A model generated the notes under the pieces. It saw only the letters and a list, made by a program, of their open reading frames with translations, made no database searches and had not been told where the DNA came from. A program made the position numbers and the translations under genes. Below, piece by piece: positions 29,973 to 45,077 of a stretch of 64,000 bases of DNA. Each line of letters opens with the position of its first letter. The first letter of the stretch is position 1. This DNA is from Methylophaga thalassica MP (GTDB lineage: Bacteria; Pseudomonadota; Gammaproteobacteria; Nitrosococcales; Methylophagaceae): the NCBI RefSeq assembly GCF_000214595.1, contig NZ_AFIG01000003.1, forward strand, positions 62,001 to 126,000. Reading direction: 5' to 3'.

Positions 29973-30216
29973 AATAACCTTGAATATGATTTATGACTAC
30001 TCGCCACTATAATTCATATCGAACTGATGTTACTTATTAAAATGTATTGTTTTTATGAGCTATGAACTATTTGTATAAATTGTGGAAATCGGAGAATAAC
30101 ATCATCACTGATTCTCAGCCAATGAATAGACTACGACTACACATGTTTAATGATAATCACTGAAGATAAGTTATCTGGTAGTTTTTTTCTATGGAAAATT
30201 AAACCAACTCTAGAAT

Positions 30217-30420
30217 TTAAGTGAGATTTTTAGCCAGTGCTTGATCGAGAATCCCTATCAACTCTTGTTTTAACCATGTTGGTTCAAGTTGTCTAGATAT
30301 GGTGATTGTGATTGCGCTCCAGCCACAACCTTAAATCTTGAGAGTCTATTGTAGTCAATTTTAACTCCAATTCATTCTTCGTATTAATATTAGACCACTT
30401 GGGCATCAGCTAATTGTGAC
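30217..30420 (-). pseudogene. Possible gene remnant upstream of brxA
   Basis: Within the roughly 540 gene-free bases 29973-30512, the minus strand shows two protein-like pieces in different frames. One reads NELELKLTTIDSQDLR; just downstream another reads GWSAITITISRQLEPTWLK, continues QELIGILDQALAKNLT, and stops at 30217-30219. They look like the end of one protein split by a frameshift near 30330. No start codon is clear and I do not recognise the family. The rest of the stretch, from 29973 to 30216, must hold the BREX promoter. Confidence 0.35.
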
Positions 30421-30512
30421 TCCAATAAATGAGGCTTCTGATTGAAGTTCAGAGTCCGTCATACTGATCGTCACATACAAACAGCACAATTACAGCAAGG
30501 AAAATATTCTGG

Positions 30513-31217
30513 TTAAAATAAATCTGGCTGTTGTGATTCGCTGTTTCGATGTGTATCGCAGGAATGATGAATTGAGAGGACTCTTAAGAATGATTTCTTG
30601 TTTTCTAGAGCCTTGTCCAATAATTTTCGATGCTTCAGGGACTGAAAGAGAGCAACTGAATATGCCTGACAATTAATCGATTTCTTTGGATTGAACTCAA
30701 TATCAGTGAATGCATCAAAATCATCTAACTGCTCAATAGCCCATGGATTTTTTTTAAGCGCATTCAAAAAAAGCCAATCATAAAAAGCGGTCTTAGGCTC
30801 TAATCCCCACTCCGTACCAAAAAATTTGAATTTCAGTAAATCACCCGAATTTTTAATTCTTGAGTCTTTCTTTGCAGATAAGGATGAGCCATACAGAAGA
30901 TCTTCATAAGGTCCACCATTCTGAAAAACTTTACTCGACTGGAAAGCAGTCTCCACTGTGAAGGCAGGTTTATGTTTTTCTGTTTTCACTGATAAGTTGA
31001 ACGCGCTCAACTGACAACCAACTTTATCTTCAGACTTAGTAGACACCTCGAGTGGATGCTTGCAGAGATCTTTTTCTCTTGCAGCAGAATGTAATGAAGA
31101 CACCGATCTTTTACGTTGTGATGGAGCTATTCCTGGATACCAAACAAAGTCAACGTACTCTATTCGCACCAAGCAATCTGAATGAAAACAAGGAATGAAA
31201 ATTGGCCTTTGTGCCAT
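30513..31217 (-). CDS. NADAR-family antitoxin (DarT1-associated, DUF6977-like)
   Basis: The protein is about 234 residues from ATG 31217 (MAQRPIFIP), which has GGGAAAG about ten bases upstream; a longer frame starting inside darT lacks support. It carries the pattern of the NADAR antitoxins found beside DarT1 toxins: LSAFNLSV, then VETAFQSSKVFQNGGPYEDLL, then FFGTEWGLEPKTAFYDWLF and AFTDIEFNPKKSINCQA. In the known pairs, NADAR removes ADP-ribose from guanine bases that DarT1 has modified, sparing the host. It starts 16 bases after the toxin stop, so the pair is one transcript with toxin first. Confidence 0.85.
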   Translation of the reverse strand: MAQRPIFIPCFHSDCLVRIEYVDFVWYPGIAPSQRKRSVSSLHSAAREKDLCKHPLEVSTKSEDKVGCQLSAFNLSVKTEKHKPAFTVETAFQSSKVFQNGGPYEDLLYGSSLSAKKDSRIKNSGDLLKFKFFGTEWGLEPKTAFYDWLFLNALKKNPWAIEQLDDFDAFTDIEFNPKKSINCQAYSVALFQSLKHRKLLDKALENKKSFLRVLSIHHSCDTHRNSESQQPDLF

Positions 31218-31233
31218 TATGAAGTCTTTCCCA

Positions 31234-32904
31234 TTAAAACTGGAAATCGTCTGGAGTATATGGATTACCTTTGACCAGTCCATAATCACCCAGCTTAACG
31301 GGTCCCCAAGAATCATAGTCTTTGCGAGGTAAAAACATCATTGGCTCATGAAAAAACTTAAACATGTTTAAGTAGGGTTTTATCGTCTCCTGGACTTGAG
31401 ACAAGTTGTGCATCTCAGTCTTTTGATTGAGGCAGATGCTTTGGATATATTTTGGGCTGATCCCCTCCAAGACAAGCACTTCTGCCTGCGGGTCTGTCGG
31501 GTAGTTATCTGGAATTTTGAGACTTTGTCTTACAGTGTTCCCTAAGTTCTCGTCAAACATCTTCTCGAAAGCTGCAGCGCTCCTCCTGGCGTCCAATGTG
31601 AGTTTCGTACTCGCTTTTCCTGCAGCATTGCTGTAACAAAAAGCACAGTCAAGCTCCCATAAAATAGACGGTTCAAGTTTTATAACAGCCCAGTCAGCAT
31701 GAGGAAACTGGATCTGTTTTCTGTAAAACATTTTGTAGTTCGGAAATGAAATTGATGTAGATATAGCATCGTTCACATTGTCCAATCTTAGAGTGTCATT
31801 CATTAAGCCACCTACGCCGTCTAATTGCAATGAAGTGCGGCTCTTAAGCCCATTTTCTAGGATCTTTGGTAGGTTTTCTATGCGCGTGAAGTGAACCAGA
31901 TAATTGATATTTCTCTTTTCAACAATACCTTTGATTTTTTCCTTATATAATTCTGCTTTAGGCAATCTACCATCGGTCTGCAGGATAACATCGGTGCTCA
32001 CGGTCTGACTGAGAAAGGTGGATGACTTGTGACTTACTCGCTCTTTATGTCGTTCTTCAGAATTAAGTTTTCTTAAATGTCCACTGAGAGACCATTTGTT
32101 AAAAGTCAAAAAAGAAATAAATGGTTTCTTATCAATAACTTTATCAATGTATTCCAGCAGTGACCTCTCTTCAGAAATACGTTTTTCGACTTGTGCAACA
32201 TAATTCAGACATTCTTGAACCTTTTCTATTCTTTGATTCAAAGCCAAAGGAGAGTGGCTTATGTCGGCAGCAAAATGTACTAACGGAATGGTTGATAACT
32301 CTATTTTTCTCTCTTCTACTCCCTCCGCATTAAGCTCTTTCAGACTATTACTTATTTGTATTCGCGTCTGTTCGTATAGCTTTCGTTTTTCAGGCTCATT
32401 TTCATAGAGATGGTCAGACTGATAAGCGGCTTCAGCATTTTTTATTGCATGGTCAACACTAAGTCTAAAAGCATAAAGCTCAAGGAGGAAGTTTTGGTTT
32501 AGTTTATCCTTCTCTGCTTCTTTTTTGAGGTTGTCATTAACACGGTCTAGGGTTTCACTAAATTGAAATAATCCTTTGTTAATGGTTGTCCCAATTTTGT
32601 TTAACGCATTGTCACTTTCACTTTCAGACTCGACAACATCATGCTGAGGTCTGATCTCAGTTTTGAGAGTAGAGTTGTCATTTTTTTTATCAGGCTTACC
32701 AAATAAACCTGAGCACCATGAAATAATCCAAACCGTTCCCCAAGTACTGATCAACTGAAGTACAAATAATGGAGAAGTTTGTAACGCCAAAATGGTCCAA
32801 CCTGTCCAGCACAAAGCAACTACAATCATCAGTACTTTTGAGTGAAGGCGAGAAAGTACAATACTTGCAGTAATAACAGTCTGCCATATCAGGACTGTCT
32901 CCAT
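31234..32904 (-). CDS. DarT1-type DNA ADP-ribosyltransferase toxin with N-terminal membrane/coiled-coil extension
   Basis: Of 556 residues, the last 220 are a DarT (DUF4433-like) domain: YLVHFTRIENLPKILENGL near residue 332 binds NAD, and PQAEVLVLE near residue 490 supplies the expected catalytic Glu. The first about 70 residues are two or three hydrophobic helices with Trp-rich segments, then a long Glu/Lys-rich coiled coil (about 80-290). Most DarT proteins are only about 200-230 residues, so the toxin here appears tethered to the membrane. DarT1 enzymes modify guanine in DNA and are used in phage defence. AAGGAT precedes the ATG. The neighbouring NADAR gene is its antitoxin. Confidence 0.82.
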   Translation of the reverse strand: METVLIWQTVITASIVLSRLHSKVLMIVVALCWTGWTILALQTSPLFVLQLISTWGTVWIISWCSGLFGKPDKKNDNSTLKTEIRPQHDVVESESESDNALNKIGTTINKGLFQFSETLDRVNDNLKKEAEKDKLNQNFLLELYAFRLSVDHAIKNAEAAYQSDHLYENEPEKRKLYEQTRIQISNSLKELNAEGVEERKIELSTIPLVHFAADISHSPLALNQRIEKVQECLNYVAQVEKRISEERSLLEYIDKVIDKKPFISFLTFNKWSLSGHLRKLNSEERHKERVSHKSSTFLSQTVSTDVILQTDGRLPKAELYKEKIKGIVEKRNINYLVHFTRIENLPKILENGLKSRTSLQLDGVGGLMNDTLRLDNVNDAISTSISFPNYKMFYRKQIQFPHADWAVIKLEPSILWELDCAFCYSNAAGKASTKLTLDARRSAAAFEKMFDENLGNTVRQSLKIPDNYPTDPQAEVLVLEGISPKYIQSICLNQKTEMHNLSQVQETIKPYLNMFKFFHEPMMFLPRKDYDSWGPVKLGDYGLVKGNPYTPDDFQF

Positions 32905-33022
32905 AAAAATCCTTATTTGAGGAAGTCAAGGCTTAGTTTATTAACCTTATGCACCTAAAAATTTCTTTCTAACAGCGAATGGAATATTCTTCAAAATCCC
33001 AATCCCACATCTAGAGCATACT

Positions 33023-33598
33023 TCAGATTGGATAATAAGAAAGCTGGATATTTTCTTCATCGTTCAAACTTGCTTCCAGCCTCCCCAAAAAGCTTGGCCA
33101 CTGTTCTATACAGATAGGACCTGACGACAGCCTAGTCGCCAATGTCGCGAGTATCGTATCATGTGTAACCCAGAGATGAGTGCCTGATCTACCAATTATC
33201 AACGTAGTGTGGATCAAAGACTGCATTTCCATTATGGCCATATCGAAATCAACAAAGCCAGGCCATCTGCCTCTCCCTGACAATAGATAGAGATTGACTG
33301 CTTCTGCACCTTTCTCAAGCCAATTCTGCAATGCCAACGCAGAATCACTAATAAAAAACCCAGGATCACCCAGCTTCTTACAAGTTTGAATTTCGTCTAG
33401 TGGGTAACCCAAGTGGTTAGCCATGATTTGTGCAGTTTGAACACACCTGGGGATGGGACTTGTTCTGATTGAAATGACATCAGAGTCGAAACTTTCAGCA
33501 TACACCAGAGTGTCTGCTTTACCTTTTTCTGTAAGAGAAAGCTCATCGCCAACAGTACCATCTGTAATGGCAGGTCTTTCAGCATGCCTAATGCATGA
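33023..33598 (-). pseudogene. Histidine phosphatase family gene, N-terminus damaged or non-AUG start
   Basis: The frame is open from 33598 to 33023. It encodes the catalytic motif RHAERP (33572-33589), then LSLTEKGKAD, SIPRCVQTA-like RTSPIPRCVQTAQIM and a C-terminal THDTILATLA, as in branch-1 histidine phosphatases. No ATG, GTG or TTG lies before the RHAERP motif: the frame reads stop, Ser, Cys, Ile, Arg-His. A GTG at 33505 would remove the catalytic histidine. So either it begins at ATT 33590, or the first beta-strand was lost by a deletion or frameshift. The body is otherwise intact. Confidence 0.6.
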
Positions 33599-33615
33599 TT
33601 AATTTTCTATCAGAC

Positions 33616-33837
33616 TTATTTTTTCTTGAGATTAAGAACTCCTGGCATGACGTCTTTGGGTTTGTCGAGAAATGTATAGTGAGATCCAGATAGCGTTTTA
33701 CCTGTATTTGTTTTTTCATCGTAGTAAAGTATCGGTGTGCTGAGCCTGTAGTGTTTGGCTAACACACTATAACCAATAAAGTGTCTATTCGTATTACCAT
33801 GATAGTCATCAAGCTCAATGATGGCCCAATTACTCAT
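33616..33837 (-). CDS. Small hypothetical protein A, paralogue of the gene at 34686-34994
   Basis: The protein is about 73 residues from ATG 33837, with a GGA nearby; a longer frame to 33879 is possible. It aligns over nearly its full length with the protein at 34686-34994: MSNWAIIEL vs MSDWNIVVI, FIGYSVLAKHYRLST vs FLGYSLHDRDYRISS, YYDEKTNTGKTLSGSHYTFL vs YYDSKSKTGRTRSGSEYRFL. The two paralogues flank the metallophosphoesterase gene. I do not recognise the family. The compact beta-rich pattern suggests a small SH3- or OB-like binding domain, which is inference. Confidence 0.65.
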   Translation of the reverse strand: MSNWAIIELDDYHGNTNRHFIGYSVLAKHYRLSTPILYYDEKTNTGKTLSGSHYTFLDKPKDVMPGVLNLKKK

Positions 33838-33921
33838 CAGTATATTTCCGGGTTTTAAGAGCCTCTTTATCCTAAACATGTCATCAATCTCGATAATTGC
33901 GATCTATCAGTAATCATATTA

Positions 33922-34683
33922 TTAAACCTCTATGACAAGACTAGAATCAAACTTCACTGGCAATCGTTCTTCCCTGTAACCTCTCTGATTACTTACAAGA
34001 CGACAGTTCCCTATCCTCATATCTAAATTGGCATGAGTGTGCCCATAGCACCATAAATCGACTTTTAAAACATAGTCCTCCAAATCAGATATGAATGCAG
34101 GCGAAATGTTATCCATTCCATAGTATGGATGAACACATTTGAGTGATGGCGCATGATGAGTGATAACTATCGTCTTCCCATCAAAAGGTTTATCTAGCTC
34201 GTCTGATAACCACCTTATCGACTCCAAATGAAGTTGAAATGCATCTTCAGGAGTAAATAATTTATCTCTAAATTTTATAAGTCGATGATCCGTTATTTGT
34301 GCAGCATACTGTTGGTACTTCTTTTTTTCAGAATTACCATATTCAGCTCTATAATTTGTCCAAAGTGTAGTACCTAATAACCTAACTCCGAATAGTTCTA
34401 TGGAATTTTTTTCAAGAAAATAAAGGTTATCAATGCCATCAGCAAACTCTCTGAGTTCCTGAGTCAGTTTGTAATACTCTCGTCTGTAATATTCATGATT
34501 CCCAGCGATATAGATAACTGGTTTTTGATGTTTATCTGCAATCTCTGCGGCCCAGTCAATACCATATGAACCCAGATGTATATCCCCAGCAAGAATAATG
34601 GCATCACTGTCCATCACTGGTATGCTATAGCCAACAGAAGGCATGGTTTCTAGATGCAAATCACTGAATAGCTGTAACTTCAT
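33922..34683 (-). CDS. Calcineurin-like metallophosphoesterase
   Basis: The 253-residue protein has all five metal-binding blocks of the family: FSDLHLE at residue 6, LAGDIHLG near 31, AGNHEYYRREYY near 60, ITHHAPS near 171 and CYGHTHANLD near 215. It should be an active two-metal phosphoesterase with an intact site. The substrate may be a nucleotide, nucleic acid or phosphoprotein; the sequence does not say. It starts 2 bases after the stop of paralogue B and ends 84 bases before paralogue A, so the three genes look like one unit. Confidence 0.88.
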   Translation of the reverse strand: MKLQLFSDLHLETMPSVGYSIPVMDSDAIILAGDIHLGSYGIDWAAEIADKHQKPVIYIAGNHEYYRREYYKLTQELREFADGIDNLYFLEKNSIELFGVRLLGTTLWTNYRAEYGNSEKKKYQQYAAQITDHRLIKFRDKLFTPEDAFQLHLESIRWLSDELDKPFDGKTIVITHHAPSLKCVHPYYGMDNISPAFISDLEDYVLKVDLWCYGHTHANLDMRIGNCRLVSNQRGYREERLPVKFDSSLVIEV

Positions 34684-34685
34684 TT

Positions 34686-34994
34686 TTAGCTTTCATCCGA
34701 CATTTCATATTTAAGTTTTATCTCAACGTCATCATGCTGTTCAAGCATATTAAAAATATACTGAGCACGTGGGTGCAATTGCCCTGGCTCACCTAAAAAC
34801 CGATATTCTGAACCTGAACGCGTTCTCCCTGTTTTACTCTTAGAATCATAATATTCAATTTGACTACTGATTCTATAATCTCTGTCATGCAGACTATAGC
34901 CAAGAAATTTTTCAATTGTCTTCCCGTTGTGCTTAATAACAACAATGTTCCAATCAGACATTTCAACATTGGTTGGTGGTACCCAGTGAGCCAT
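34686..34994 (-). CDS. Small hypothetical protein B, paralogue of the gene at 33616-33837
   Basis: The protein is 102 residues from ATG 34994 (MAHWVPPTN), which has a strong AAGGAGAG just upstream; a longer frame to 35093 is less likely. The central 60 residues match paralogue A (see that entry), including the shared YYD-K-TG-T/R-SGS block. The C-terminal tail, rich in His/Glu/Asp, is specific to this copy. It is immediately upstream of the metallophosphoesterase, separated by two bases, so co-expression is expected. Family unknown. Confidence 0.7.
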   Translation of the reverse strand: MAHWVPPTNVEMSDWNIVVIKHNGKTIEKFLGYSLHDRDYRISSQIEYYDSKSKTGRTRSGSEYRFLGEPGQLHPRAQYIFNMLEQHDDVEIKLKYEMSDES

Positions 34995-35188
34995 TTTTCT
35001 CTCCTTTTTAAGCCAAATACTTTCTACCCCTTTATCCATTTGAAAATAATCACTTCCTTTCAAACGAATGAAAGTAGTCTCTACTAAAAACACTCACAAC
35101 ACAAGAATAAAAATATATAATTTTCCATATATATCAAACAGTTATATTGTATTATGTATATATTACGTTTAATAAAAAGAGGTTAGGA

Positions 35189-35494
35189 ATGAGACAAATA
35201 AAAAATGATGACATACAATGTATTACGGACTTAAAAGCATCCTTTCTTAAAGCTCAGAGTGCTCTTCTTGAGGAGCACCTTTTACATAAAGATGACTCTA
35301 TACAGAGCCACATCAACTACCCATTTGATATTGAGATAAAACACGACTGGAAGTTATTCAGTAAAACACTGCAGAGTTTTTCACCAGAGTCTTTAAAAGA
35401 AGCAATCAATTTCGGTGAGTCATATGTATTTACTAGTAATAATCATATCTTCGTGCAAGCAATCCTACAGAATTCTTCTCCGAGGACTAATTGA
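35189..35494 (+). CDS. Small hypothetical protein upstream of HAD-like gene
   Basis: The protein is about 101 residues from ATG 35189 (MRQIKNDDI), which has GGTTAGGA directly upstream; a longer frame begins at 35147 without a ribosome site. It is predicted mostly helical (ITDLKASFLKAQSALLEEHLL), with a YPFDIEIKHDWKLF segment. I recognise no family. Its TGA is directly followed by the ATG of the HAD-like gene, so the two are an operon. It is divergent from the metallophosphoesterase unit, across an AT-rich 194-base promoter region. Confidence 0.6.
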   Translation: MRQIKNDDIQCITDLKASFLKAQSALLEEHLLHKDDSIQSHINYPFDIEIKHDWKLFSKTLQSFSPESLKEAINFGESYVFTSNNHIFVQAILQNSSPRTN

Positions 35495-35941
35495 ATGGAA
35501 GATTTAACGCTCGCGCTAGATTTGGAAGGCGTTCTAATAACGAATGCTTATACTCAATTGCCTCGACCTGGCCTTATGTCGTTTCTTGTAGAGTGTGTTT
35601 CAATCTTTGGGCAAAATAACCTCTGCATCTTTACACGCGTTGAGGAACAACTTTTCAGACAGATTGCCCATAAATTGCGAGACGATAATAAAGTCCCGGA
35701 TTGGTTTCCTGATATTCGTTATATAGACTGGGTAGGAGAGCACAAAGATTTACGCTTTGTAGATGATGATATTGATAGAGTGATCATTATTGATGATTAT
35801 CCACCGTATATTAAGCAATCCCAAAAGCATCGCTTGATTCCAATTAAACAATATACAGATCCATATAGTCATGAGTCACCAGATGACACTGATGATGAAC
35901 TAAGCTTTGTTTTGAAAAAGTTGCTCAACTATATTCAATAA
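35495..35941 (+). CDS. HAD-superfamily (NIF/FCP-like) phosphatase-like protein
   Basis: The 148-residue protein begins with LALDLEGVLITN, the HAD motif I position, but with Glu where most phosphatases have the second Asp (DxE instead of DxD). CIFTRVEEQLF near residue 45 fits motif II (Thr), and VIIIDDYPPY near residue 108 fits motif IV (DD). This arrangement is closest to the NLI-interacting-factor/FCP1 group. The altered motif I suggests changed or weak catalysis. It starts directly at the stop of the preceding small gene. Confidence 0.7.
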   Translation: MEDLTLALDLEGVLITNAYTQLPRPGLMSFLVECVSIFGQNNLCIFTRVEEQLFRQIAHKLRDDNKVPDWFPDIRYIDWVGEHKDLRFVDDDIDRVIIIDDYPPYIKQSQKHRLIPIKQYTDPYSHESPDDTDDELSFVLKKLLNYIQ

Positions 35942-36093
35942 TTTCACTGTGAGTTATATTTCTGAGAGCAAAAATAACCTCTCGGGTGATTATTGATTAA
36001 CAACTCACCAGGAGAAAAACCAGGAATTTTTTGAGGATTAACTGACTGTTTGAAGCCAATAAGACTAAAACGATGACTTCGAGATGATTTAGG

Positions 36094-36552
36094 CTATTTT
36101 TCTAATAAAAGAGTAATTACTGATTTCACATAGTTATAAATCTCTGGGCACTGGCTATGTCGAGGACCGGCAACATTAAGTATCTCAATATCATAGTCAA
36201 TGATGAATTTTTGAAGACTTTCTGTTGCTAGTTCATGTTCTATCAAGTCTATATCAATGAGTTTATATGGCTTTTTATGCTTAATACAAAATGCTACCGT
36301 TAGCTCAGTTCCCCCACTAACATAGCCACTATAAAAAACGGCAGTGCCATCTGCATCCTCAACATTCTTTTTGGTTCTAGCTCTGTAGCCACCACCTATT
36401 TCTGCTAAGTTATAAATTGAGTCTATTTTTCCATCTTCCGCAATACGCCCTATTGGACAGGATCCTGAATATGGGAAAGAGTGCAAGATTGAAGCATCAA
36501 GTGCAGCTCTGTCTGCACCAGTTTGTCCTCCACTAATAATTTTGCACAACAC
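36094..36552 (-). CDS. Putative molybdenum carrier / SLOG-superfamily protein
   Basis: The 152-residue protein has ISGGQTGADRAALDASI at residue 6 and GTAVFYSGYVSGGTELTVAFC near residue 70. These glycine-rich loops define the cpYpsA/putative molybdenum carrier family within the SLOG (Rossmann-like nucleotide-binding) superfamily. The molybdenum function was named by homology; related SLOG proteins bind nucleotides or ADP-ribose-like ligands in conflict systems. It starts at a GTG with AAGGAG upstream. It ends the phosphatase-rich cluster and faces the repeat array. Confidence 0.8.
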   Translation of the reverse strand: MLCKIISGGQTGADRAALDASILHSFPYSGSCPIGRIAEDGKIDSIYNLAEIGGGYRARTKKNVEDADGTAVFYSGYVSGGTELTVAFCIKHKKPYKLIDIDLIEHELATESLQKFIIDYDIEILNVAGPRHSQCPEIYNYVKSVITLLLEK

Positions 36553-36689
36553 AACCTGGCTCCTTGCAGAAGAAATTATCTATGATATTGATACTTACTG
36601 ATTTAACGACTCTCCAGCATTAAGATAATATATCAATGTCAAAGCAAGGTGAGTAATGCTCTTGGAGCAGGTTCTGGAGAAATGCCCTA

Positions 36690-36705
36690 TTTCACGTAGG
36701 TGAAA
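36690..36705. other. Perfect short hairpin beside the repeat array
   Basis: TTTCAC, loop GTAG, GTGAAA: a perfect 6-bp stem with a 4-base loop, about 25 bases before the first copy of the 15-bp palindrome of the array. Confidence 0.5.
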
Positions 36706-36727
36706 CGACATTAGTTATTCCAAAAAG

Positions 36728-37704
36728 TCGTTACTTTGACGAGGCCATAAATGAAAGAACTTAAACTCGTCAACTTTACGACCTTTGATTAAAGTAAATT
36801 AATTCAATTACTTACAAGTCATCCAACCACCTTCCTGGCAAAACATCTTTGGACGAGACAGCGTGAAACCCGCATGAATGCTGTAAGACAGCTGATGTAC
36901 ATTGTTCAATCTTAAGGTCGTTAATTCTACGAGACCATCAACAATTGAACTTATACTCGTTAAATTTACGACCTTTGATTAAAACATTCTAATTCAATAA
37001 CTTCTCTATTGCGCAGGCTTCTGTCGGGTTCAAACAACTTGGTCCGAGACAGCGTAAAACCCGCATGAATGCTGTAAGACAGCTGATGTGCATTGTTCGA
37101 TCTTAAGGTCGTTAATTATACGAGACAATTAAAAAAAATGAACTTATACTCGTTAATTTTACGACCTTTGGTTAATGTAAATTAATTCAGTCACTTATCG
37201 ACTACGCAGGCTTCTATCGGGTTCAAACATCTTGGGTCGAGACAGCGTGAAACTCGCATTAATGCTGTAATACAGCTGATGTACATTGTTCAGTCTCAAA
37301 GTCGTTAATTATACGAGACAATTAAAAAAAATGAACTTATACTCGTTAATTTTACGACCTTTGGTTAATGTAAATTAATTCAGTCACTTATCGGCTACAC
37401 AGGCTTCTATCTGGTTCAAACATCTTGGGTCGAGACAGCGTGAAACTCGCATTAATGCTGTAATACAGCTGATGTACATTGTTCAGTCTCAAGGTCGTTA
37501 ATTATACGAGACAATTAAAAAAAATGAACTTATACTCGTTAATTTTACGACCTTTGGTTAATGTAAATTAATTCAGTCACTTATCGACTACACAGGCTTC
37601 TATCGGGTTCACACAATATGGTTCGATAACTCAGCGAAGCCCACTATTAACAATACATTACAGTTTGTGTTCTTAGATTCTAACTAAGGTCGTAAAATTT
37701 ACGA
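36728..37704. repeat. Array of 193-bp tandem repeats with eleven 15-bp palindromes
   Basis: Five copies (last partial) of a unit begin with GAACTTATACTCGTT at 36757, 36947, 37140, 37333 and 37526, giving periods of 190, 193, 193 and 193 bases. Copies 3 to 5 are nearly identical; copies 1 and 2 are older. Each unit carries a quasi-palindrome TCGTTAATTTTACGA near its left end and TCGTTAATTATACGA near its right end. Including the flanks there are eleven TCGT-N7-ACGA sites: 36728, 36767, 36918, 36957, 37109, 37150, 37302, 37343, 37495, 37536 and 37690. Between the two sites lies a conserved 135-base core with a GAGACAGCGT/ATGCTGT hairpin. There is no open frame. It may be a binding or recombination array, a partition-like locus or repeated small RNA genes. 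Confidence 0.9.
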
Positions 37705-37853
37705 CAACATGCTCATCATAGATCTCATTCTCTAATAAACTTTTCGCTTGATGGAATTAGTCTCTAGATTAAGTATTAGTAATCACAATACCTAGGATAA
37801 GCAGTTATGTTTCTTATATTTTGAGTGTGAATGAGAGAAATGGATGGCGTCAG

Positions 37854-38294
37854 CTAAGTAATGAAGTGTCGTGATTTTTCTCCTTTTTGTACTACCCTTG
37901 GCCAGCGGCTATGTATTTGAGCATCTTCAAGCTCAGGCTCGATTGTCACCACATACACACGGCGCTCACTTCCTTCTTTTGCCAATAAACCCTGAATGTA
38001 TTGTCCTTTTTGCAGGTCATACCAGTGACTAATACCTTCGAGATCTTTTTCCATAAAACTCAAAACAGGTATTTTCACCGGTGTCGGAAAGTATTTATCC
38101 CACCTGCCGGCATAGATAGAATCGAGTCTCGCCCAGCCTGTCATCGGTAAGTTACCAGGTTGTTTTTGTCGCCGCCCCCATGCAATCAATTTGATACCGC
38201 CTTCTGACGTTAATACAGGTAAAACAGCTTTGGGATTAGGATAAAAAATTCGCAGCACATCCTCACCATGCTGGAAATAAACGCCACCACACAT
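37854..38294 (-). CDS. SRAP-like (YedK/HMCES-type) protein next to Y-family polymerase
   Basis: The 146-residue protein begins MCGG, and its spacing and pattern fit a short, divergent SOS-response-associated peptidase: Cys2 exposed after Met removal, IAWGRRQKQPGNLPMTGWARLDSI in place of the usual WG-iP-W-NAR block, and VYVVTIEP near residue 120. SRAP proteins crosslink to abasic sites in single-stranded DNA via Cys2, shielding them. It is shorter than YedK (about 220 residues), so some elements are missing or changed. Its start codon overlaps the stop of the polymerase gene, which strongly suggests a joint role in tolerance of damaged DNA. Confidence 0.6.
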   Translation of the reverse strand: MCGGVYFQHGEDVLRIFYPNPKAVLPVLTSEGGIKLIAWGRRQKQPGNLPMTGWARLDSIYAGRWDKYFPTPVKIPVLSFMEKDLEGISHWYDLQKGQYIQGLLAKEGSERRVYVVTIEPELEDAQIHSRWPRVVQKGEKSRHFIT

Positions 38295-39535
38295 TAGATA
38301 GTTTTCCTATGTCCTGTAGGCTTCCATGCTGGGGCAATCACATTGGGCATTTCACTTCGCCCAATGACGCGTGTCGGGGCAACTGTAAACTCACCGTAAC
38401 GCTCATTAATTTTATCAATAGCCGTATTGAGCGCCTCACGCTTTTGTTTGTGTGACTCATCGACGAACATATCTTGCTGTTTATGATGGGTTGGATTCAA
38501 AGCCGTGACTTGAACCTGACCACATTCTTCACCGCTATAACGACTCTTAATAAATTGCTTACATAGGTCATATATCAATGCCCCATCATCTGTAGCGTTA
38601 TCGATTTTTTGTTTTGTCCCTAGCCAGCCAAAAGGTGTCTTTAAACCAATGAAGAAGGTATCACTCAGGAAGTGATGCTTACGCAAACGAGCACCCACCT
38701 TTTCAGACATATGTTGAAAGAAGGTCAGTATCGTATTCATGTCACGGGTGCCTGGCGGCATGACTTTTCCATGACCAACTGATTTGGGTTCTTTTACTGT
38801 AGTTATAACAGGTTCGGGATCACGTCCCTGAGCCATCAGCCATATCCGTCTCCCTGGGTTACCAAAACGTTTTGCAATGAGGCTCATGGGGACTTTTTTC
38901 ATATCCCCACATTGTGTGATGCCGTACTTACCTAAGAATCTCGCAATACCTTTATTGATACCACTCAGTTCTGTCACGCTCTCATTGCTTAGGCGCTCTT
39001 CAGCTTCCCAAGGGGCAATGATGGTCATGCCATCCGGCTTATTGAGTTTTGCAGCAAATTTGGCTGTCGTTTTATCACCGCTAATGCCAACACTACAGGT
39101 GAGTCCTGACACCTGACTAATCGTATCTTTGATGAGGAAACCAATATGTTCAGGCGATTTATAGATAGTCTGACAAGCAGTTAAATCCAAAAAGGCCTCG
39201 TCAACTGAATAAACCTCTACAGTCGGTGTAATACTAAATAGTGCTTCCATAATATCGGTGGAGACAGCCGCATAACGATATGGCCTGCTAGGAGCCTGGA
39301 TAATATTAGGACACAGCTCTCTTGCCTCTTTTAGGCGCATGCCTGTTTTCACACCGTAACTTCTGGCCTCGTACGATGCCGTGATGATGGTGCTACCAAG
39401 TTTGCCATTGGTGACGCCCACAGGTTTATTTCGCCAGTATGGATAGTCTTGCTGTTCTATCTGAGCAAAGAAGCAATTCATATCAACCAGCGCAATCATT
39501 TTCGGCCAATGATGGGATGATGCGTTTGAGCTCAT
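38294..39535 (-). CDS. Y-family DNA polymerase (UmuC/DinB-like)
   Basis: The 413-residue protein has the Y-family catalytic core: IALVDMNCFFAQIEQ at residue 14 (first metal Asp), TIITASYEARSYGVKTGM near 50, and VYSVDEAFLDLT near 107 (catalytic Asp-Glu). A little-finger-like domain with VGHGKVMPPGTRD near 252 follows. It should be a translesion polymerase. No umuD-like partner is beside it. Instead the SRAP-like gene overlaps its stop. The core is complete, so it is probably active. No clear LexA box was seen in the 244-base upstream region. Confidence 0.88.
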   Translation of the reverse strand: MSSNASSHHWPKMIALVDMNCFFAQIEQQDYPYWRNKPVGVTNGKLGSTIITASYEARSYGVKTGMRLKEARELCPNIIQAPSRPYRYAAVSTDIMEALFSITPTVEVYSVDEAFLDLTACQTIYKSPEHIGFLIKDTISQVSGLTCSVGISGDKTTAKFAAKLNKPDGMTIIAPWEAEERLSNESVTELSGINKGIARFLGKYGITQCGDMKKVPMSLIAKRFGNPGRRIWLMAQGRDPEPVITTVKEPKSVGHGKVMPPGTRDMNTILTFFQHMSEKVGARLRKHHFLSDTFFIGLKTPFGWLGTKQKIDNATDDGALIYDLCKQFIKSRYSGEECGQVQVTALNPTHHKQQDMFVDESHKQKREALNTAIDKINERYGEFTVAPTRVIGRSEMPNVIAPAWKPTGHRKTI

Positions 39536-39779
39536 AGAGTGCTTAGTAACCTAAAACCCTGTTGTGGTGTGTGCATTCGTCTTCTCCTCTTAATCAGCTA
39601 AAAATAGTCTGATTTGGTTTAATAGGTTGAGAACAAAAAGAGAAGAGAAAATATAGAGAATATTCTGTATCAAAGCAAGTATATTAAACACGCCGAATCA
39701 GATTGGTTGGAAAAATAAAGCCTGTACTTTTATTTTTATGACATGAACGCAACTTGCCAAATGGATTATCTACGTCATC

Positions 39780-40127
39780 ATGTTCATTACAACTATGAAC
39801 ACGATTTACAGCTTAATTCACATTATTCCAGATCGCGTCTTACGCTGGATTGGTGGTGGTGATGCGCCATTAGGTGATATGGGTGTTGAACAAGCCAATA
39901 AACAAGCCTTCGGTATTGCGGTTGGTACCGGTTCACAAGCAACAAGCCAAGGTGCTGGCGCCATGGGTAATAAGGGTCAAGCGCCTACACCAGATGGTGA
40001 CAACACTAAAACCCCTGGTAAAGACGATGATAAGCAGAATACGGATGCTGAAATGGAGTCCAGGGAAGACAGTGCCGGCTCAAATAAGGGTGGCAAGACA
40101 CAGGAAGACAATAAATCAGTAAGATAG
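39780..40127 (+). CDS. Small protein resembling the C-terminal tail of a conjugation membrane protein (possible remnant)
   Basis: The 115-residue product starts with a hydrophobic stretch ending in IIPDRVLRWIGGGDAPLGD near residue 15 and continues as a Gly/Ala/Gln-rich, then highly acidic and charged tail. The PDRVLRWIGG block recalls the C-termini of DotA/TraY-type polytopic conjugation proteins. A full-length protein of that kind would be 700 residues or more, so this could be a leftover of a lost transfer region. The identification is by pattern memory only. An efficient terminator follows immediately at 40128, which suggests that the end of an operon has been kept. Confidence 0.5.
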   Translation: MFITTMNTIYSLIHIIPDRVLRWIGGGDAPLGDMGVEQANKQAFGIAVGTGSQATSQGAGAMGNKGQAPTPDGDNTKTPGKDDDKQNTDAEMESREDSAGSNKGGKTQEDNKSVR

Positions 40128-40157
40128 AAAAAAGCCCCGGAAACGGGGCTTTTTTTA
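40128..40157 (+). terminator. Rho-independent terminator
   Basis: AAAAAAGCCCCG, loop GAAA, CGGGGCTTTTTTT: a GC-rich stem with flanking A and T runs, starting at the base after the TAG of the preceding gene. It probably works in both directions and also ends the converging gene at 40180. Confidence 0.9.
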
Positions 40158-40179
40158 GAGGTAAAGAATAGCTATTTAC

Positions 40180-40851
40180 CTATACCACATATCGTTCATT
40201 AGTAAATACATCCGATTTTTCTAGCGCAGACTTGTTTTCTTGACCAGCAGCAATATGGCTTTTGAGCTCCTCATTGAGAAGATTGAACTCGGCATTTAAT
40301 GCTTCTATTGATTGCAGTTTGCTGTACCCATCTTTTTTACTTACATCAGCGGCATCATCTTCCCAGCGCTTTATGGCACGTTTGAGCCCGTCAATGGCTT
40401 CAAATTTCACTTTCGCCACCGCAAAATTGGGGTTGGTGGAGATAAAATACTCATTCACTTCTTGTTGATTTTGACTACCCTTATAACCCAACACTCTTTC
40501 CAGTTCTTCTGGGTTGGCGATAAGGGTTGTATAGTGTTCGACCAGCTTTTTATAACTTTTAATCTGCAGAGAAAGGTTTTGAACGATTGCCACAGCGTCC
40601 TTTATTTTTCTAAGCGATCTATGATGGCCTGCCACCTCTTCATTAAACTCATCAACAAGCTCTTCGTATTTATCAATCCACTTCATGGCCTTATTCATCG
40701 CCTTAAAATACTCTTCCCGCCACTGGGCGGCATTGCGATTGGCTCGTTGCGCCGAGGCCATGGCCGCATTAGCATTGTTCCTCTCTGCATTGATTTGGCC
40801 CATCCGCATACCGGTCATGGCGTTATTGACAATTCCATCATATATGGCCAT
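40180..40851 (-). CDS. Hypothetical helical coiled-coil protein
   Basis: The 223-residue protein is strongly helical. Residues 20-50 are Asn/Ala/Gln-rich, and residues 50-120 and 170-210 show heptad-like Leu/Ile/Lys/Glu patterns. There is no signal peptide or membrane helix. AAGGAGATAAGG precedes the ATG, so expression is well supported. I recognise no family. It converges on the terminator at 40128-40157. A structural or partner-binding role is possible. Confidence 0.6.
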   Translation of the reverse strand: MAIYDGIVNNAMTGMRMGQINAERNNANAAMASAQRANRNAAQWREEYFKAMNKAMKWIDKYEELVDEFNEEVAGHHRSLRKIKDAVAIVQNLSLQIKSYKKLVEHYTTLIANPEELERVLGYKGSQNQQEVNEYFISTNPNFAVAKVKFEAIDGLKRAIKRWEDDAADVSKKDGYSKLQSIEALNAEFNLLNEELKSHIAAGQENKSALEKSDVFTNERYVV

Positions 40852-41104
40852 AAAGTCCTTATCTCCTTACTGTGGGGACCGGGTTAAAGCCCCCTTTATT
40901 AACGTTACCTTTACTTTAAAGCAATCTTTTTTCTTTGTCAGTGAATTTGCTCTCGATAATGACAGCTTCATCGGTAAAGACGGCTTTTAAAATAGGGCAA
41001 TTATAAAAATTATCCTAAAATAAACTCAAAAATTAGTAAGTTTTTTATAAACTTAGTAAGTTAACTCACATATCATCAATACATATTTTTTTGGAATACT
41101 CGGG

Positions 41105-41530
41105 TTAATTACATCCATCTTCGAGATATTGCCGAAACCGCGTTAAATCCATACCTCTCTGAAGGTTGTAGCTCATTGCTAAGTAATCTCTAGCTGGTCT
41201 CTCTGGATGGTATTCAGCAGAGAAGAATGACATAGACGGTGACGCGCTCTTTGGATCGATTTTATCTACCAGCAAAGCTGCGTCAAAAGGTCTAAATCCA
41301 ACAAAAGTAGATAGTGCCTCGGCAAGATATTGAGTTTTTATGTGTGTATCGTGACCATAACTTCGAGATAACTGAATTAGATAATTCCAATTATCGACTG
41401 ACTCTATAAGATGCTTACAAACATTGAAGAAGGTCTCTTCCCAATGACGATACCCATCATAATCTTCTTGAGATCGCAGCAAGTTCAAAACTGACTCACA
41501 GACTTTTTGTTCATCAGTGTATTCATGCAT
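41105..41530 (-). CDS. Hypothetical protein in a three-gene leftward unit
   Basis: The 141-residue protein is helical and acidic, with WNYLIQLSRSYGHDTH near residue 47 and YHPERPARDYLAM near the C-terminus. No family is recognised. It starts two bases after the stop of the nucleotidyltransferase-like gene and is the last gene of a tight unit that also includes 42161-42433. Confidence 0.55.
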   Translation of the reverse strand: MHEYTDEQKVCESVLNLLRSQEDYDGYRHWEETFFNVCKHLIESVDNWNYLIQLSRSYGHDTHIKTQYLAEALSTFVGFRPFDAALLVDKIDPKSASPSMSFFSAEYHPERPARDYLAMSYNLQRGMDLTRFRQYLEDGCN

Positions 41531-41532
41531 AT

Positions 41533-42141
41533 TTATTTAGATGTTTTGCTTGAAAAGTATTCTGTAGCATCCCTAATCCCAGAAAAAATGAGCTTTTTAT
41601 CACCTATGTAACTATCCAGTGTTTCTTTTGCCCTGCTTTCAAACTCACTTCTATTAAAAAAGCCCATATCAGCCAGTTTCTTTATTGCTAAATCACCCCC
41701 ATCATAATATCTCGCTAGTTTTGAAACAGCTAAATCCAAAGGGGATATGACATATAGTGCAATCTTATCTGTGTTAGCAGCATGGCAAATAAATGAAGAG
41801 TCATTTTTATAATCTGGATGCAATAAACCAGCACCATCATGGTAACTCCTATCTAGCCTGATGGTTTTTAATTGCTTTTTCATATCCGTCTCTAACTCAT
41901 CCAGGTAAGTTTCTACCATACCTTCTGGAATAATGAGGCGTTCAGAAAAACAAATTTCGATTGATAACGGTTTAGCCTGCTTAGTGTAAAGATATAATGC
42001 ACTGTCATTTAAGATGTACGCTCTTATAGCAGTGTGTTCAGCTAAATCATCAGACAGACATGAAACTAAGCGACAAACAGCCCTCCAAAAATTTGTTTCA
42101 AATCCAAGATGTCTATTTTCTACAGTGTCAGACCAGCTCAT
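41533..42141 (-). CDS. DUF6036-like (nucleotidyltransferase-fold-like) protein
   Basis: The 202-residue protein has AYILNDSALYLYT near residue 45 and VISPLDLAVSKLARYYDGGDLAIKKLADMG near residue 133. This order (small hydrophobic-ALxLY start, later SPxDLxxxKLAR...D) is seen in DUF6036/AbiEii-like nucleotidyltransferase-fold proteins. The usual GG-S and catalytic DxD residues are not evident, so it may be inactive or divergent. Such proteins often belong to toxin-antitoxin-like pairs. Its neighbours on both sides are within 20 bases, so a three-gene module is likely. Confidence 0.45.
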   Translation of the reverse strand: MSWSDTVENRHLGFETNFWRAVCRLVSCLSDDLAEHTAIRAYILNDSALYLYTKQAKPLSIEICFSERLIIPEGMVETYLDELETDMKKQLKTIRLDRSYHDGAGLLHPDYKNDSSFICHAANTDKIALYVISPLDLAVSKLARYYDGGDLAIKKLADMGFFNRSEFESRAKETLDSYIGDKKLIFSGIRDATEYFSSKTSK

Positions 42142-42160
42142 TTACTCAACTCAGTCAAGC

Positions 42161-42433
42161 TTATAGACCACTGTGTTTATCATCGAACATTTTGAGTTTA
42201 TCAATTAGTTCAGCATCATCGATGTAATATAACTCAGGATATGACTCGCTATTATTAAGAGCATTAATCAGTAGTTGCATCAGTCTCATCTGAGGATGTT
42301 TTTGCCAAACATTTAAAAGTGAATGCAAGAGCTCAAACTGTCCCTCTACACTTCTTGCTGAAGAGGGAGCATCTTCAAGAGACGCCATAGCCTCATTCAA
42401 CCAATCTGTATTACCTTTGTCTCGTGCTGTCAT
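42161..42433 (-). CDS. Small hypothetical protein leading a three-gene unit
   Basis: The protein is about 90 residues from ATG 42433, which has GAGAGGATAT upstream; the frame could begin four codons earlier. It is helical, with FELLHSLLNVWQKHPQMRLMQLLINAL in the middle and an acidic C-terminus. No family is recognised. It is followed 19 bases later by the DUF6036-like gene, suggesting a toxin-antitoxin-like or defence module, which is inference only. Confidence 0.55.
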   Translation of the reverse strand: MTARDKGNTDWLNEAMASLEDAPSSARSVEGQFELLHSLLNVWQKHPQMRLMQLLINALNNSESYPELYYIDDAELIDKLKMFDDKHSGL

Positions 42434-42667
42434 ATATCCTCTCATACAGAATCTTTTTACATGTTGAATTTAATACCTAAACTTTAGTTGTTCGCTTCCC
42501 ACCAATCTATGATTCATAAAAGTCATGACACAGATTACACGACTATTGGTATTCTTCTTTTTCATACATTAACACCAGTTCCATCGGTGAACTATTTTTG
42601 ACTAAAAGACTTGCTAGAAGATATTAGAAAACATCTAAATAACCATCATTAATAACAAGGAGAATTG

Positions 42668-42847
42668 ATGCTAATACTGACAAGAAACATTGGCCAGAAA
42701 GTAGTTATTGCTGACAACGTTGTGATAACAGTTCTTAATGTTGACATCAATGAACAGGTCAAATTTGGTATCACTGCACCGAAGAATATCTCCGTACATC
42801 GTGATGAAATATACAAAAAAATTCGTAACGAAAAAGACTATGACTAG
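42668..42847 (+). CDS. csrA: CsrA/RsmA-family carbon storage regulator
   Basis: The 59-residue protein has the CsrA pattern [16 protein letters not shown], the beta core [19 protein letters not shown] (with V-HR-EIY for RNA contact) and a short Lys/Asp tail. CsrA dimers bind GGA motifs in mRNA leaders and control translation. The true start is ATG 42668, with AAGGAGA seven bases upstream; a TTG directly precedes it. Horizontally acquired csrA copies are known from integrative elements, where they control transfer or lifestyle. Its targets on this island are not known. Confidence 0.92.
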
Positions 42848-42905
42848 AAGCCTATTTAACTGTCATTAGTATTCCCCATTCTCCGCTATCGTTGTCATAA
42901 AGTAG

Positions 42906-43175
42906 TTTTACCTGAAGGTTTTTTCAATCGTTAAAGACAGCCTTACTCCATACTTCAAGCAAGAAAACGAAGAAAACATCTTTGTTGCAAACTGCGTTGT
43001 TGATTTTTATAAACAGATAACACGGTTTGACTCTGGAAGTATGGGTGGGGAGTATGAAAGTGTTTATCTTTTTACGACCCAAAAAAGCTGTCTTTTTTAT
43101 AAAGAAACCTATTGCTCTAAGCGAACTTATTTCTATGCCGATTTTACATATATAGCGCGGTTTTTTTTTGCATAA
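42906..43175 (+). pseudogene. Open protein-like frame without a start codon
   Basis: After a TAG at 42903 the frame stays open for 89 codons to TAA 43173. The translation looks like a real protein (VKDSLTPYFKQENEENIF, then YKQITRFDSGSMGGEYESVYLF, then CSKRTYFYADFTYIA). No ATG, GTG or TTG occurs before an internal Met near codon 47, so the N-terminus is probably lost or shifted. Just before the stop there is a run of nine T at 43161-43169, where slippage could also shift the frame. Family unknown; it follows csrA in the same direction. Confidence 0.45.
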
Positions 43176-43268
43176 TCAAAAAGCAAACATCGTATTTACA
43201 TACCTGAATCTGCAACAATGACTTTGTCATAAAACGATCAGAAATATGCATCAAGGAAACTGAAAAGC

Positions 43269-43910
43269 ATGAAAAGATGCCAGCATACATACTGGGCTAA
43301 TTTTAAAAATATTGATGGATACTTGTTTCGTTTTGACACCAGAATATATTTAAAACCTGTATCTGATGTTTTATCCAGTGACGAATGTATTGGGGCCGTT
43401 GTAGGTAAAAATCCTGGTTCGGCATTGCCTCTCTATCATTCTGATGGAATTACTCCCATCGACATTGGAAACGATAAACTTTTGCCAACACTCAAGTCTC
43501 TCATTGAAAAATCGTATAACAATTCAAACATGAGTTTACCTGAGCGGAAATACATACAGGTGATGAACCTTTTTTATCTTTGCGAGCATAATCTGCCTAT
43601 AGCAATTCATAAAAATATGCGTTTTCAAAAAGCAATAACCTGCAAATCTGAATGTAATAATTATCCTTGGATATGGTATTTATGGGGTAATGGAAGAGAT
43701 AATAATGCCAAACTATTGAACACTTTTAAGCAAAGATTCAGAACAATAAAATCAGAGCATCATTTTTATTTAGATAAGAATACATCGCAGATTGTTTGGT
43801 CTATGCCTGATGCTACTGATTTTGCAAAACACCTTCAAGGCATGCCTCACAGAAAAGTATTACCCACTATCAGCTATTTAATTTTGCAACAAAAAAATGA
43901 GCCTAATTAA
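43269..43910 (+). CDS. DUF1643/UDG-like hypothetical protein
   Basis: The 213-residue protein has CIGAVVGKNPGSALPLY near residue 40, which resembles the NPSxA/NPG motif of DUF1643 and uracil-DNA-glycosylase-fold proteins. A later YPWIWYLWGNGRDNNAKLL segment and a C-terminal GMPHRKVLPTISYLIL recall the GxPxHPL ending of DUF1643. The match is partial. AAGGAAAC lies upstream of the ATG. It converges tail to tail, two bases apart, with the UDG-like gene at 43913, which also has a GENPS motif, so the two may be functionally related. Confidence 0.5.
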   Translation: MKRCQHTYWANFKNIDGYLFRFDTRIYLKPVSDVLSSDECIGAVVGKNPGSALPLYHSDGITPIDIGNDKLLPTLKSLIEKSYNNSNMSLPERKYIQVMNLFYLCEHNLPIAIHKNMRFQKAITCKSECNNYPWIWYLWGNGRDNNAKLLNTFKQRFRTIKSEHHFYLDKNTSQIVWSMPDATDFAKHLQGMPHRKVLPTISYLILQQKNEPN

Positions 43911-43912
43911 GC

Positions 43913-44554
43913 TCATCTTGAATATTTTTTTGCGATAGATTTTATGCTAGCTTTAAATTCAGCAATTCTATCAGGATGTCTTGGCCCTCTATTTGTACCT
44001 GACTCAGGCCTCATCATGATGTATGAATAGTGATGAATCTTTTCAGTTGCCGGTACCTTCAGCCCTAACTTAATCATGTAATGAATAATTTTCTCTGACT
44101 GCCCACCCAGCAATACCAGCACTTTAGGATCACCATTGTCTATTTGTTGCTGAAGTATTGGTAGCCAAAGCTCAGCTTGAACTTTCCAGTAATCAGAGTT
44201 TCTTTTTTTTAGATTTCTTTCTGTAACAATCTCTGGCTCTTTAATTGCGTTAGTGATGTAACAGTTCCATCCCTCATTCAATTCCACTGGCCCTTGCTTG
44301 AGACCGGCATCCGTCATTGCCTCACGTAAAAGTTTATCCCCAGCATGTGAGTTCCATTGTAGATTTTCAGTTTTTTCTGTCTCTGGTGAACGTTTATTAA
44401 CATTGATTACACCATTCAAACTCGGATTTTCACCAATAAACCAAACTGACGCATTTGGATTACCCAAGCATCCAGTCAACCAAGGGTAATCACTCAACCA
44501 ATCGGTTAACTGATTGTCCTTTATCGTAGTTCTGGTGGCTTGCACTATGTCCAT
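43913..44554 (-). CDS. Uracil-DNA-glycosylase-superfamily-like protein
   Basis: The 213-residue protein has VWFIGENPSLNGVINV near residue 38 (position of the UDG water-activating motif), NCYITNAIKEPEIV near 104, VLVLLGGQSEKIIHYMIKLG near 147, and a C-terminal MMRPESGTNRGPRHPDRI that fits the HPS/HP-type leucine-loop motif. This order matches the UDG superfamily. Family 4/5 Fe-S cysteines are absent. The substrate could be uracil or another damaged base in DNA, but some members bind without cleaving. The start follows a TGAGGT. It converges with the gene at 43269. Confidence 0.65.
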   Translation of the reverse strand: MDIVQATRTTIKDNQLTDWLSDYPWLTGCLGNPNASVWFIGENPSLNGVINVNKRSPETEKTENLQWNSHAGDKLLREAMTDAGLKQGPVELNEGWNCYITNAIKEPEIVTERNLKKRNSDYWKVQAELWLPILQQQIDNGDPKVLVLLGGQSEKIIHYMIKLGLKVPATEKIHHYSYIMMRPESGTNRGPRHPDRIAEFKASIKSIAKKYSR

Positions 44555-44597
44555 TAGTTAACCTCAGGATGAGTTATTTGATTGCTATCAATAATAA

Positions 44598-44969
44598 CTA
44601 AACATCAATAAATCCTATTCCTTTGTATGACATTTGATGTGTATTTGCTTCCTTAGGCCAGAGCTTATTCCAGTTAGGATCTAGCTTAAATATAATAATC
44701 TTCCTTCCATCAACATCATGCATTTCATCTTTACCGAGAGAAACTAGTAATGCTTGATGTTTAGCCACTTCTTCATTTGAGGCATCACGTAAACCAATTA
44801 TTTTTCCGCCCTTGTGTGCTCGGTCATTTTTTGATTTATGTAGGGATATATATGACATTTTTTCTTCACGGAGCGATAAATTCCACATCCATGACTCTAG
44901 AACGCCTCTTTCATTACTAGGCAAAATACCGTGTTTTGATATTAAAAAAAGTGTGTTTGGAATAGTCAT
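44598..44969 (-). CDS. Small hypothetical protein (possible PUA-like fold)
   Basis: The 123-residue protein includes SYISLHKSKNDRAHKGGKIIGL, then a Lys/His/Glu-rich stretch, then KIIIFKLDPNWNKLWP and GIGFIDV. Short beta-rich proteins with a GGKIIG-like turn can be PUA/EVE-like nucleic-acid readers, but the evidence is weak and I do not claim the family. It is in the same direction as the UDG-like gene, 43 bases upstream of it. Confidence 0.5.
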   Translation of the reverse strand: MTIPNTLFLISKHGILPSNERGVLESWMWNLSLREEKMSYISLHKSKNDRAHKGGKIIGLRDASNEEVAKHQALLVSLGKDEMHDVDGRKIIIFKLDPNWNKLWPKEANTHQMSYKGIGFIDV

Positions 44970-45077
44970 AACTTATTTATATCCAATCATGCAGTAATTA
45001 TATTTCCTCAAACTAAACTATCGCCATCGCTTTGTCATGCTAATAAGTATGAATTTCACTTTCCAAATAAGTCTTGT

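Follow-up and report, generated by a model that had tools for sequence, protein, structure and literature searches.

What is the role of an array of eleven short palindromes, with no gene among them, within a genomic island? The array lies in a 64-kb stretch of DNA (hereafter the window; G000:C1:62001-126000) from a 3.26-Mb genome available as three contigs (G000). The coordinates of the array, its sites and its neighbours, given as positions in the window, are collected in Table 1.

Table 1. The array, its sites and neighbouring features of the island (positions in the window)
Feature	Position	Strand	Basis
Genomic island, ~36 kb, integrated at tRNA-Cys	12228..48375	.	51-bp direct repeat of tRNA-Cys end, starts 12228 and 48325
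cpYpsA SLOG-family gene, left of array	36094..36552	-	protein-family scan
Array, 11 iteron-like sites in five ~193-bp units	36728..37704	.	Tandem Repeats Finder, pattern scan, matrix
Site A1	36724..36745	-	15.6 bits, G042 iteron matrix
Site B1	36764..36785	+	19.9 bits, G042 iteron matrix
Site A2	36914..36935	-	14.7 bits, G042 iteron matrix
Site B2	36954..36975	+	27.2 bits, G042 iteron matrix
Site A3	37105..37126	-	14.0 bits, G042 iteron matrix
Site B3	37147..37168	+	25.2 bits, G042 iteron matrix
Site A4	37298..37319	-	exact TCGT-N7-ACGA; not >11 bits with G042 matrix
Site B4	37340..37361	+	25.2 bits, G042 iteron matrix
Site A5	37491..37512	-	14.0 bits, G042 iteron matrix
Site B5	37533..37554	+	25.2 bits, G042 iteron matrix
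Site A6, terminal	37686..37707	-	20.1 bits, G042 iteron matrix
Five non-coding cores between sites, 136-139 bp	36782..37689	.	unit 3 folded: no excess structure
146-aa gene, right of array	37854..38294	-	no Pfam, NCBIfam or PHROG match
Y-family polymerase, after 146-aa gene	38294-39535		protein-family scan
Xre-type regulator	45078..45386	-	protein-family scan
Rec2, second tyrosine-recombinase-like protein	45613..46506	+	protein-family scan, plasmid relatives
Island integrase, tyrosine recombinase, beside tRNA-Cys	47052..48158	-	protein-family scan

Organization of the array

A pattern scan of the window returned eleven exact TCGT-N7-ACGA sites between positions 36728 and 37704 (starts: 36728, 36767, 36918, 36957, 37109, 37150, 37302, 37343, 37495, 37536 and 37690), against a mean of 0.60 and a maximum of 3 in 100 shuffled windows; a twelfth exact match, at position 388, lies away from the array. 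From start to start the sites are spaced 39/151/39/152/41/152/41/152/41/154, and Tandem Repeats Finder reports a period of 193 with 4.5 copies (36757-37615). No open reading frame of 45 or more amino acids was present from 36552 to 37854, the region holding the array. Scan, repeat finder and reading-frame list all agree with the first-pass annotation, which had described eleven palindromes in a ~193-bp tandem array without a gene.

What that description missed is the asymmetry of the sites. Each is a 20-22-mer of the form ACTCGT-N7-ACGACCTT, and orientation alternates along the array: the odd-numbered (A) sites mostly read AAGGTCGT-N7-ACGAG, and the even-numbered (B) sites are the reverse of these, mostly ATACTCGT-N7-ACGACCTT. 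With up to two mismatches the extended site ACTCGT-N7-ACGACCTT occurs once outside the array in the whole of G000, where a reversed control pattern occurs twice per strand. Because the extended site is nearly absent outside the array, the sites are, under this motif, unlike the operators of a wider regulon.

The arms of the sites are conserved beyond their surroundings. In an alignment of units 1-3 (units 4 and 5 were excluded, being respectively a near-copy of unit 3 and half-diverged; gap columns were scored as variable where units differ) all 16 arm columns are invariant, compared with 5 variable columns among the 14 of the 7-bp centres (Fisher p 0.014) and 56 among the 173 other non-centre columns (Fisher p 0.0036). 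Gene conversion between units could account for part of this conservation. The three newest copies had been thought almost identical: this holds for units 3 and 4, which are 97% identical over their length – pointing to recent expansion of the array – but not for the whole of unit 5, where the match to them is 92-100% over the first half but 44-72% per 25-column bin over the second.

Folding was examined for one of the five pairs of facing sites and one of the five cores. The larger inverted repeats that facing palindromes were said to form are real: in single-stranded form the pair at 37100-37172 gives a good fold (z -3.98 for DNA of the plus strand, -4.30 for RNA of the minus strand). The conserved hairpin core is not borne out, the core of unit 3 folding no better than shuffled sequence (z -0.27 on plus, +0.25 on minus), and a small GCTGT-AAK-ACAGC stem that the alignment shows in units 1-4 is lost in unit 5 and in the related genome G053. 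An Rfam scan of the array returned no family at its gathering score (three matches at E 0.73-3.3 fell far below theirs). The idea of repeated small RNAs gains nothing from the Rfam scan or from the fold of the unit-3 core on both strands, and on these results a structured repeated non-coding RNA was rejected. An array of promoters was likewise rejected: three promoter-like matches were found, against 4.5 expected from shuffles. The R-box core of integron attC sites is GTTRRRY; none was seen by eye in the array sites.

A matching array beside a Rep3 gene

Up to two mismatches allowed, the 20-bp site has matches in 41 of the 57 genomes of the family set, mostly scattered singles at about the control rate. 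Besides the arrays of G000 and G053 the search produced one dense cluster only, in G042, another genome of the same genus as G000, where 12 of the 14 matches fall within G042:C16:42711-43954. At up to three mismatches this array comprises 26 copies over 1.6 kb (L115:8883-10501), all on one strand; 14 of the 24 gaps among 25 copies measure 29 or 60-61 bp, and 16 of the sites carry exact TCGT-N7-ACGA.

The G042 array lies upstream of a 442-aa gene and ends 14 bp before its called start. The encoded protein exceeds the Pfam cut-offs for both halves of a Rep3 initiator (PF01051 Rep3_N, 26.0 vs 22.4; PF21205 Rep3_C, 34.9 vs 21.1). Its relatives in the plasmid collection are ten Erwinia/Ewingella records only, at 24-26% identity, eight of them annotated as replication initiation protein; solved structures gave no match at E ≤1. 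Given its position, the simplest reading of the G042 cluster is as the iterons of a Rep3 replicon. Because DnaA-box-like sequences are few and none is exact (four with one mismatch in the 2.1 kb around the array), it is from the Rep3 neighbour that we infer an origin here, and because the contig (51,856 bp, from a draft assembly) has ends without overlap, the plasmid is a presumed one. The contig also carries genes of metal-resistance type, as read from translations, helicase-type matches below cut-off, and a Ter-protein match barely above it (22.5 vs 22).

Agreement between the two arrays was measured in both directions. A matrix built from the 26 G042 sites alone gives ten matches above 11 bits in the 64-kb window, and all ten are array sites; only A4 is missed. 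The same matrix yields a mean of 0.52 and a maximum of 3 matches per shuffled window (50 single-base shuffles; best score 18.8), and two matches in 22 other loci (396,876 bp). The B sites score 20-27 bits and the terminal site A6 scores 20; the other A sites score 14-16 (A4 below 11), and since this falls within the shuffled range, their case, A6 apart, rests on position in the array and on pairing. Conversely, when the G042 contig is scanned with a matrix from the eleven window sites, the top scores (up to 30.6 bits) fall in the array. Of its 33 matches above 9 bits on that contig, 25 are array sites in one orientation, six are array sites read backwards and two lie elsewhere; 20 shuffled contigs gave 1-9 matches each, and control loci 18 in 399,125 bp, the G008 cluster described below included. 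The first-pass annotation had listed a replication locus and a sponge among possible roles: the match of the site to an iteron-like array next to a Rep3 gene lends both of them strong support at the sequence level.

Distribution of related site clusters

The motif CGTAAAANYTACGACCTT, at up to two mismatches, matches in 32 of the 63 genomes of the order set and forms clusters in four: G000 (9), G053 (3), G042 (23) and G008 (4). Occurrence only here was one of the conditions under which, on the earlier reasoning, the array would have been dismissed as probably neutral repeat expansion; clusters in four of the 63 genomes dispose of that condition. A search for TCGT-N7-ACGA clusters had also been proposed: clusters do exist elsewhere, but the exact dyad is not general, being found in 16 sites of G042 and altered in the left arm in G008.

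DNA similarity to the array itself is limited, among the 57 family genomes, to G000 and G053. The latter, a draft genome of the same genus, has the same island backbone at 93-95% DNA identity and a collapsed array of four sites (L015:9886-10137), a copy number that could be underestimated since the genome is a draft. One of the four sites is a hybrid whose left half comes from B1 and whose right half comes from an A site: the collapse is a deletion at the 15-bp core and not a loss of whole 193-bp units. As a single event it fits site-specific recombination and slippage alike.

The remaining cluster comes from a different genus of the family, that of G008. The four related sites there share one orientation and stem from the duplication of a 123-bp segment (copies 94% identical), so that they count as two independent sites. 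Their left arm is not TCGT; the part in common is TAAAA-N-YTACGAC. The same contig carries homologues of proteins of the window island: Rec2 (39% identity), the metallophosphatase (45%) and h135 (31%). Site clusters were looked for around relatives of Rec2, in fetched stretches some of whose contigs end close by: three of the 17 places have one (G000, G053 and G008, the first two representing the same island) and 14 do not. The association of site cluster with Rec2 is suggestive, not general, and Rec2 was rejected as binder of the array on account of the 14 places whose stretches lack a cluster. No arrays were seen beside the SRAP/UmuC homologues of G050 and G010.

Wider searches added little. 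Against 72,556 plasmid records the window array matched one record (E 1) and the G042 array four (best E 0.5), none of them useful; nine Salmonella phage records share 29 bases with the window array (E 0.09). A two-site inverted pattern gave ten single matches in GTDB contigs, where by our own estimate, made without a shuffled control, about seven are expected by chance and where the window's own genome was possibly left out; in viral contigs it gave none, and a search with a direct-repeat iteron pattern gave none either. Among the 369 genomes of the class set, close-spaced TCGT-N7-ACGA pairs occur five times in G000 and once each in three others, which we take as chance because a reversed control pattern matched seven genomes. 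ACTCGT-N7-ACGACCT occurs five times in G000 and once each in 13 others, taken as chance on the same ground, the reversed control having matched at least as many. For the island and for G042 alike, the nearest matches among plasmids are Methylophaga records. On one plasmid of Methylophaga pinxianii (NZ_CP095734.1) four places match the G042 array query, and a 52-bp stretch of the G042 array region (L115:10239-10290) is 79% identical to NZ_CP095734.1:56839-56890.

The island and its genes

The sites recur on the contig of a related island, in G008, yet no homologue of the G042 Rep was detected there: at E ≤0.001 the protein has one match among the 57 family genomes, namely G042 itself, and none in G000, G053 or G008. 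Rep3_N exceeds its cut-off of 22.4 in G042 only, of four genomes scanned (G000, G053 and G054 each have one match of ~15 bits), and Pfam scans of 30 island proteins revealed neither a Rep3 gene nor any other replication gene of the island's own. Around the array, two DnaA-box-like sequences with one mismatch and no exact one occur in 1.5 kb; the AT fraction reaches 0.80 in 50-bp windows.

The island also encodes a BREX system, DarT with a NADAR antitoxin, CsrA and an excisionase-like helix-turn-helix gene. The 146-aa gene to the right of the array we take, by eye, to be SRAP-like. Relatives of Rec2 are found in 45 plasmid records, 43 of which are classed as non-mobilizable by standard typing: they occur on cryptic plasmids of 3.1-3.2 kb in Pseudoalteromonas and Pseudomonas (E 1e-37 and 7e-33), on 2.3-kb Klebsiella plasmids (E 2e-6 and 3e-6), and on much larger replicons. 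The size class of the 2.3-kb plasmids is that of pIGRK. Among viral loci there was no match for Rec2 and one weak match for the SRAP-like gene. Judged by these relatives, Rec2 may be a tyrosine-recombinase-like relaxase; if so, the island would be mobilizable and would encounter plasmids in two roles, as helpers and as rivals. Relaxases of this kind are known, MobK of pIGRK and MpsA of SGI1 being described as such (PMC8152469, PMC6414798); Rec2 may be likened to them through its relatives on small cryptic plasmids, a parallel that concerns a neighbouring gene, not the array.

The DarT toxin and NADAR antitoxin genes (window 30513-32904) adjoin the BREX system. Two small homologous genes (87 and 135 aa) flank a metallophosphatase at window 33616-35093; both recur in the Rec2-bearing stretches L088, L089, L092 and L094, the metallophosphatase in three of these four.

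Comparison with known systems and possible function

The above analyses point to the array as, probably, an orphan cluster of Rep3-type iterons. Like the iterons of Rep3-family theta plasmids it consists of multiple sites of ~20-22 bp in non-coding DNA, and of the properties of Rep3-linked iterons it has the clustering of ~17-22-bp non-coding sites and the match to such iterons themselves (10 of 11 sites). Unlike them, it has no rep that could be found in cis, its sites alternate in orientation instead of forming direct repeats, they are spaced by 151-154 bp across the cores, and they lie in a chromosomal island. Also counted against the iteron reading are the direct-repeat arrangement of the sites in both G042 and G008, the difference between the 7-bp centres of the window sites and those of G042, the paucity of DnaA-like boxes, and the lack of a plasmid with closer iterons in the records searched.

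Cloned iterons inhibit iteron plasmids in trans. Judging from the sites and their setting, we lean towards an active, plasmid-directed role for the array. The Rep of an incoming plasmid with matching iterons would be predicted to bind the eleven island sites; these could titrate or handcuff the visiting initiator, and the plasmid would be destabilised, by incompatibility or as the victim of a decoy. Alternatively, Rep could support replication or persistence of the excised island, at a cost to the plasmid. By analogy with known systems the decoy or incompatibility function is a possibility that we advance with reserve, and a helper-dependent origin is an unlikely one. The fuller proposal is equally tentative: that the island, which bears defence genes and may be mobilizable, is equipped with a dedicated rep-less decoy array by which it expels or parasitises Rep3 plasmids. 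Such a strategy may be common to related islands in at least two genera. Plasmid-record searches with the array, the G042 array and the G042 Rep brought up no named helper plasmid with matching iterons.

SGI1 provides the closest precedent. This mobilizable island, likewise integrated, has short inverted repeats that serve as sites for the maintenance protein of a plasmid: it is described as carrying two parS sites of its helper, the IncC plasmid, and these sites stabilise SGI1 and play a part in driving the helper out (PMC10954446). Our island resembles it in having an integrase, site-specific integration and flanking repeats (of 51 bp in our island). In the accounts cited, however, SGI1 offers two sites that bind ParB at a centromere, where the window array offers eleven that are replication-iteron-like and for which binding is predicted; and SGI1 has its own rep and iteron oriV (PMC7433901), where no replication gene was found among the 30 island proteins scanned. 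A second parallel is drawn from chromosome 2 of V. cholerae, for which extra initiator-binding sites are reported to reduce initiation through titration and handcuffing; a six-site RctB-binding locus far from the origin is likened to E. coli datA (PMC6090056). In such loci, as described there, initiator-binding sites clustered at a distance from the origin reduce initiation, as is proposed for the array; these loci act on the cell's own replicons, whereas the initiator of the array would come from a visiting plasmid.

In the titles and abstracts listed by our literature search, which covered few subscription journals, we recognised no orphan iteron array in an island, the SGI1 papers apart. 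If the proposal is true, the array would be the replication-origin counterpart of the hijacking of IncC parS sites by SGI1. Defence genes are the usual explanation of conflict between islands and plasmids. Plasmid iterons arrayed without any gene would instead be a weapon that acts purely in cis, or a parasitic origin, and gene-based annotation would not see them. A similar search could reveal further orphan iteron arrays in genomic islands.

Alternative explanations

The main rival is a decayed plasmid origin: an integrated Rep3-type plasmid would have lost its rep, and units of its origin would have expanded by unequal crossing-over into a neutral remnant of no present function. A remnant of this kind would account for our finding no rep in cis, for the differing number of sites (11 in G000, 4 in G053) and for the 97% identity of units 3 and 4. 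We nonetheless hold it to be rather unlikely: the arms stayed invariant among units 1-3 while other columns diverged, the array is kept in the backbone common to the G000 and G053 islands, and a related site cluster lies on the contig of the divergent island of G008. The four-base arms had also suggested recombinase sites, which would serve to shuffle or excise units. The collapse in G053, at a hybrid B1/A site across the 15-bp core and not by whole units, agrees with this idea, but it is one junction, slippage between 15-bp direct repeats could explain it equally well, and it is the central 7 bp, not the arms, that differ from site to site; of the explanations considered we think this one very improbable.

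Two further alternatives assign the array to proteins of the island, and both seem improbable to us. The array could be the oriT or relaxosome site of Rec2, were Rec2 a relaxase of the MobK/MpsA kind. The oriTs of MobK and MpsA are described as containing inverted repeats (PMC8152469, PMC6414798), relatives of Rec2 occur on small cryptic plasmids among other replicons, and three of the four site clusters are on Rec2-bearing contigs. Those oriTs, by the same descriptions, adjoin the relaxase gene, and the array is 8 kb from Rec2; moreover the largest array, that of G042, abuts a Rep3 gene on a contig with no Rec2 match at E ≤0.01, and no site cluster was found around the Rec2 relative that G042 does have (L099). 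The array could instead be an operator cluster for an island regulator such as the Xre-type protein. We infer from the dyad geometry that a dimeric helix-turn-helix protein would fit, and a promoter-like TATACT overlaps three B sites; yet promoter-like matches are no more frequent than in shuffles, the site matrix finds nothing at the Xre or Rec2 promoters and outside the array gives only two weak matches in the window (36591 and 36690), both adjoining it, and the array beside the Rep3 gene would be left unexplained.

Additional observations

A 90-bp tandem array of a palindromic repeat occupies a contig end in another genome (L087:1-537, G035:C75). Two divergent c-di-GMP-I riboswitch matches at window 61540-62076 precede two secreted-type proteins with similar C-termini. 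About 20 bp to the left of the array lies a perfect inverted repeat, TTTCAC-GTAG-GTGAAA (window 36690-36705), whose version in G053 is TTTCAC-TTAG-GTGAAA; we take it to resemble a pair of parS half-sites with a 4-bp gap.
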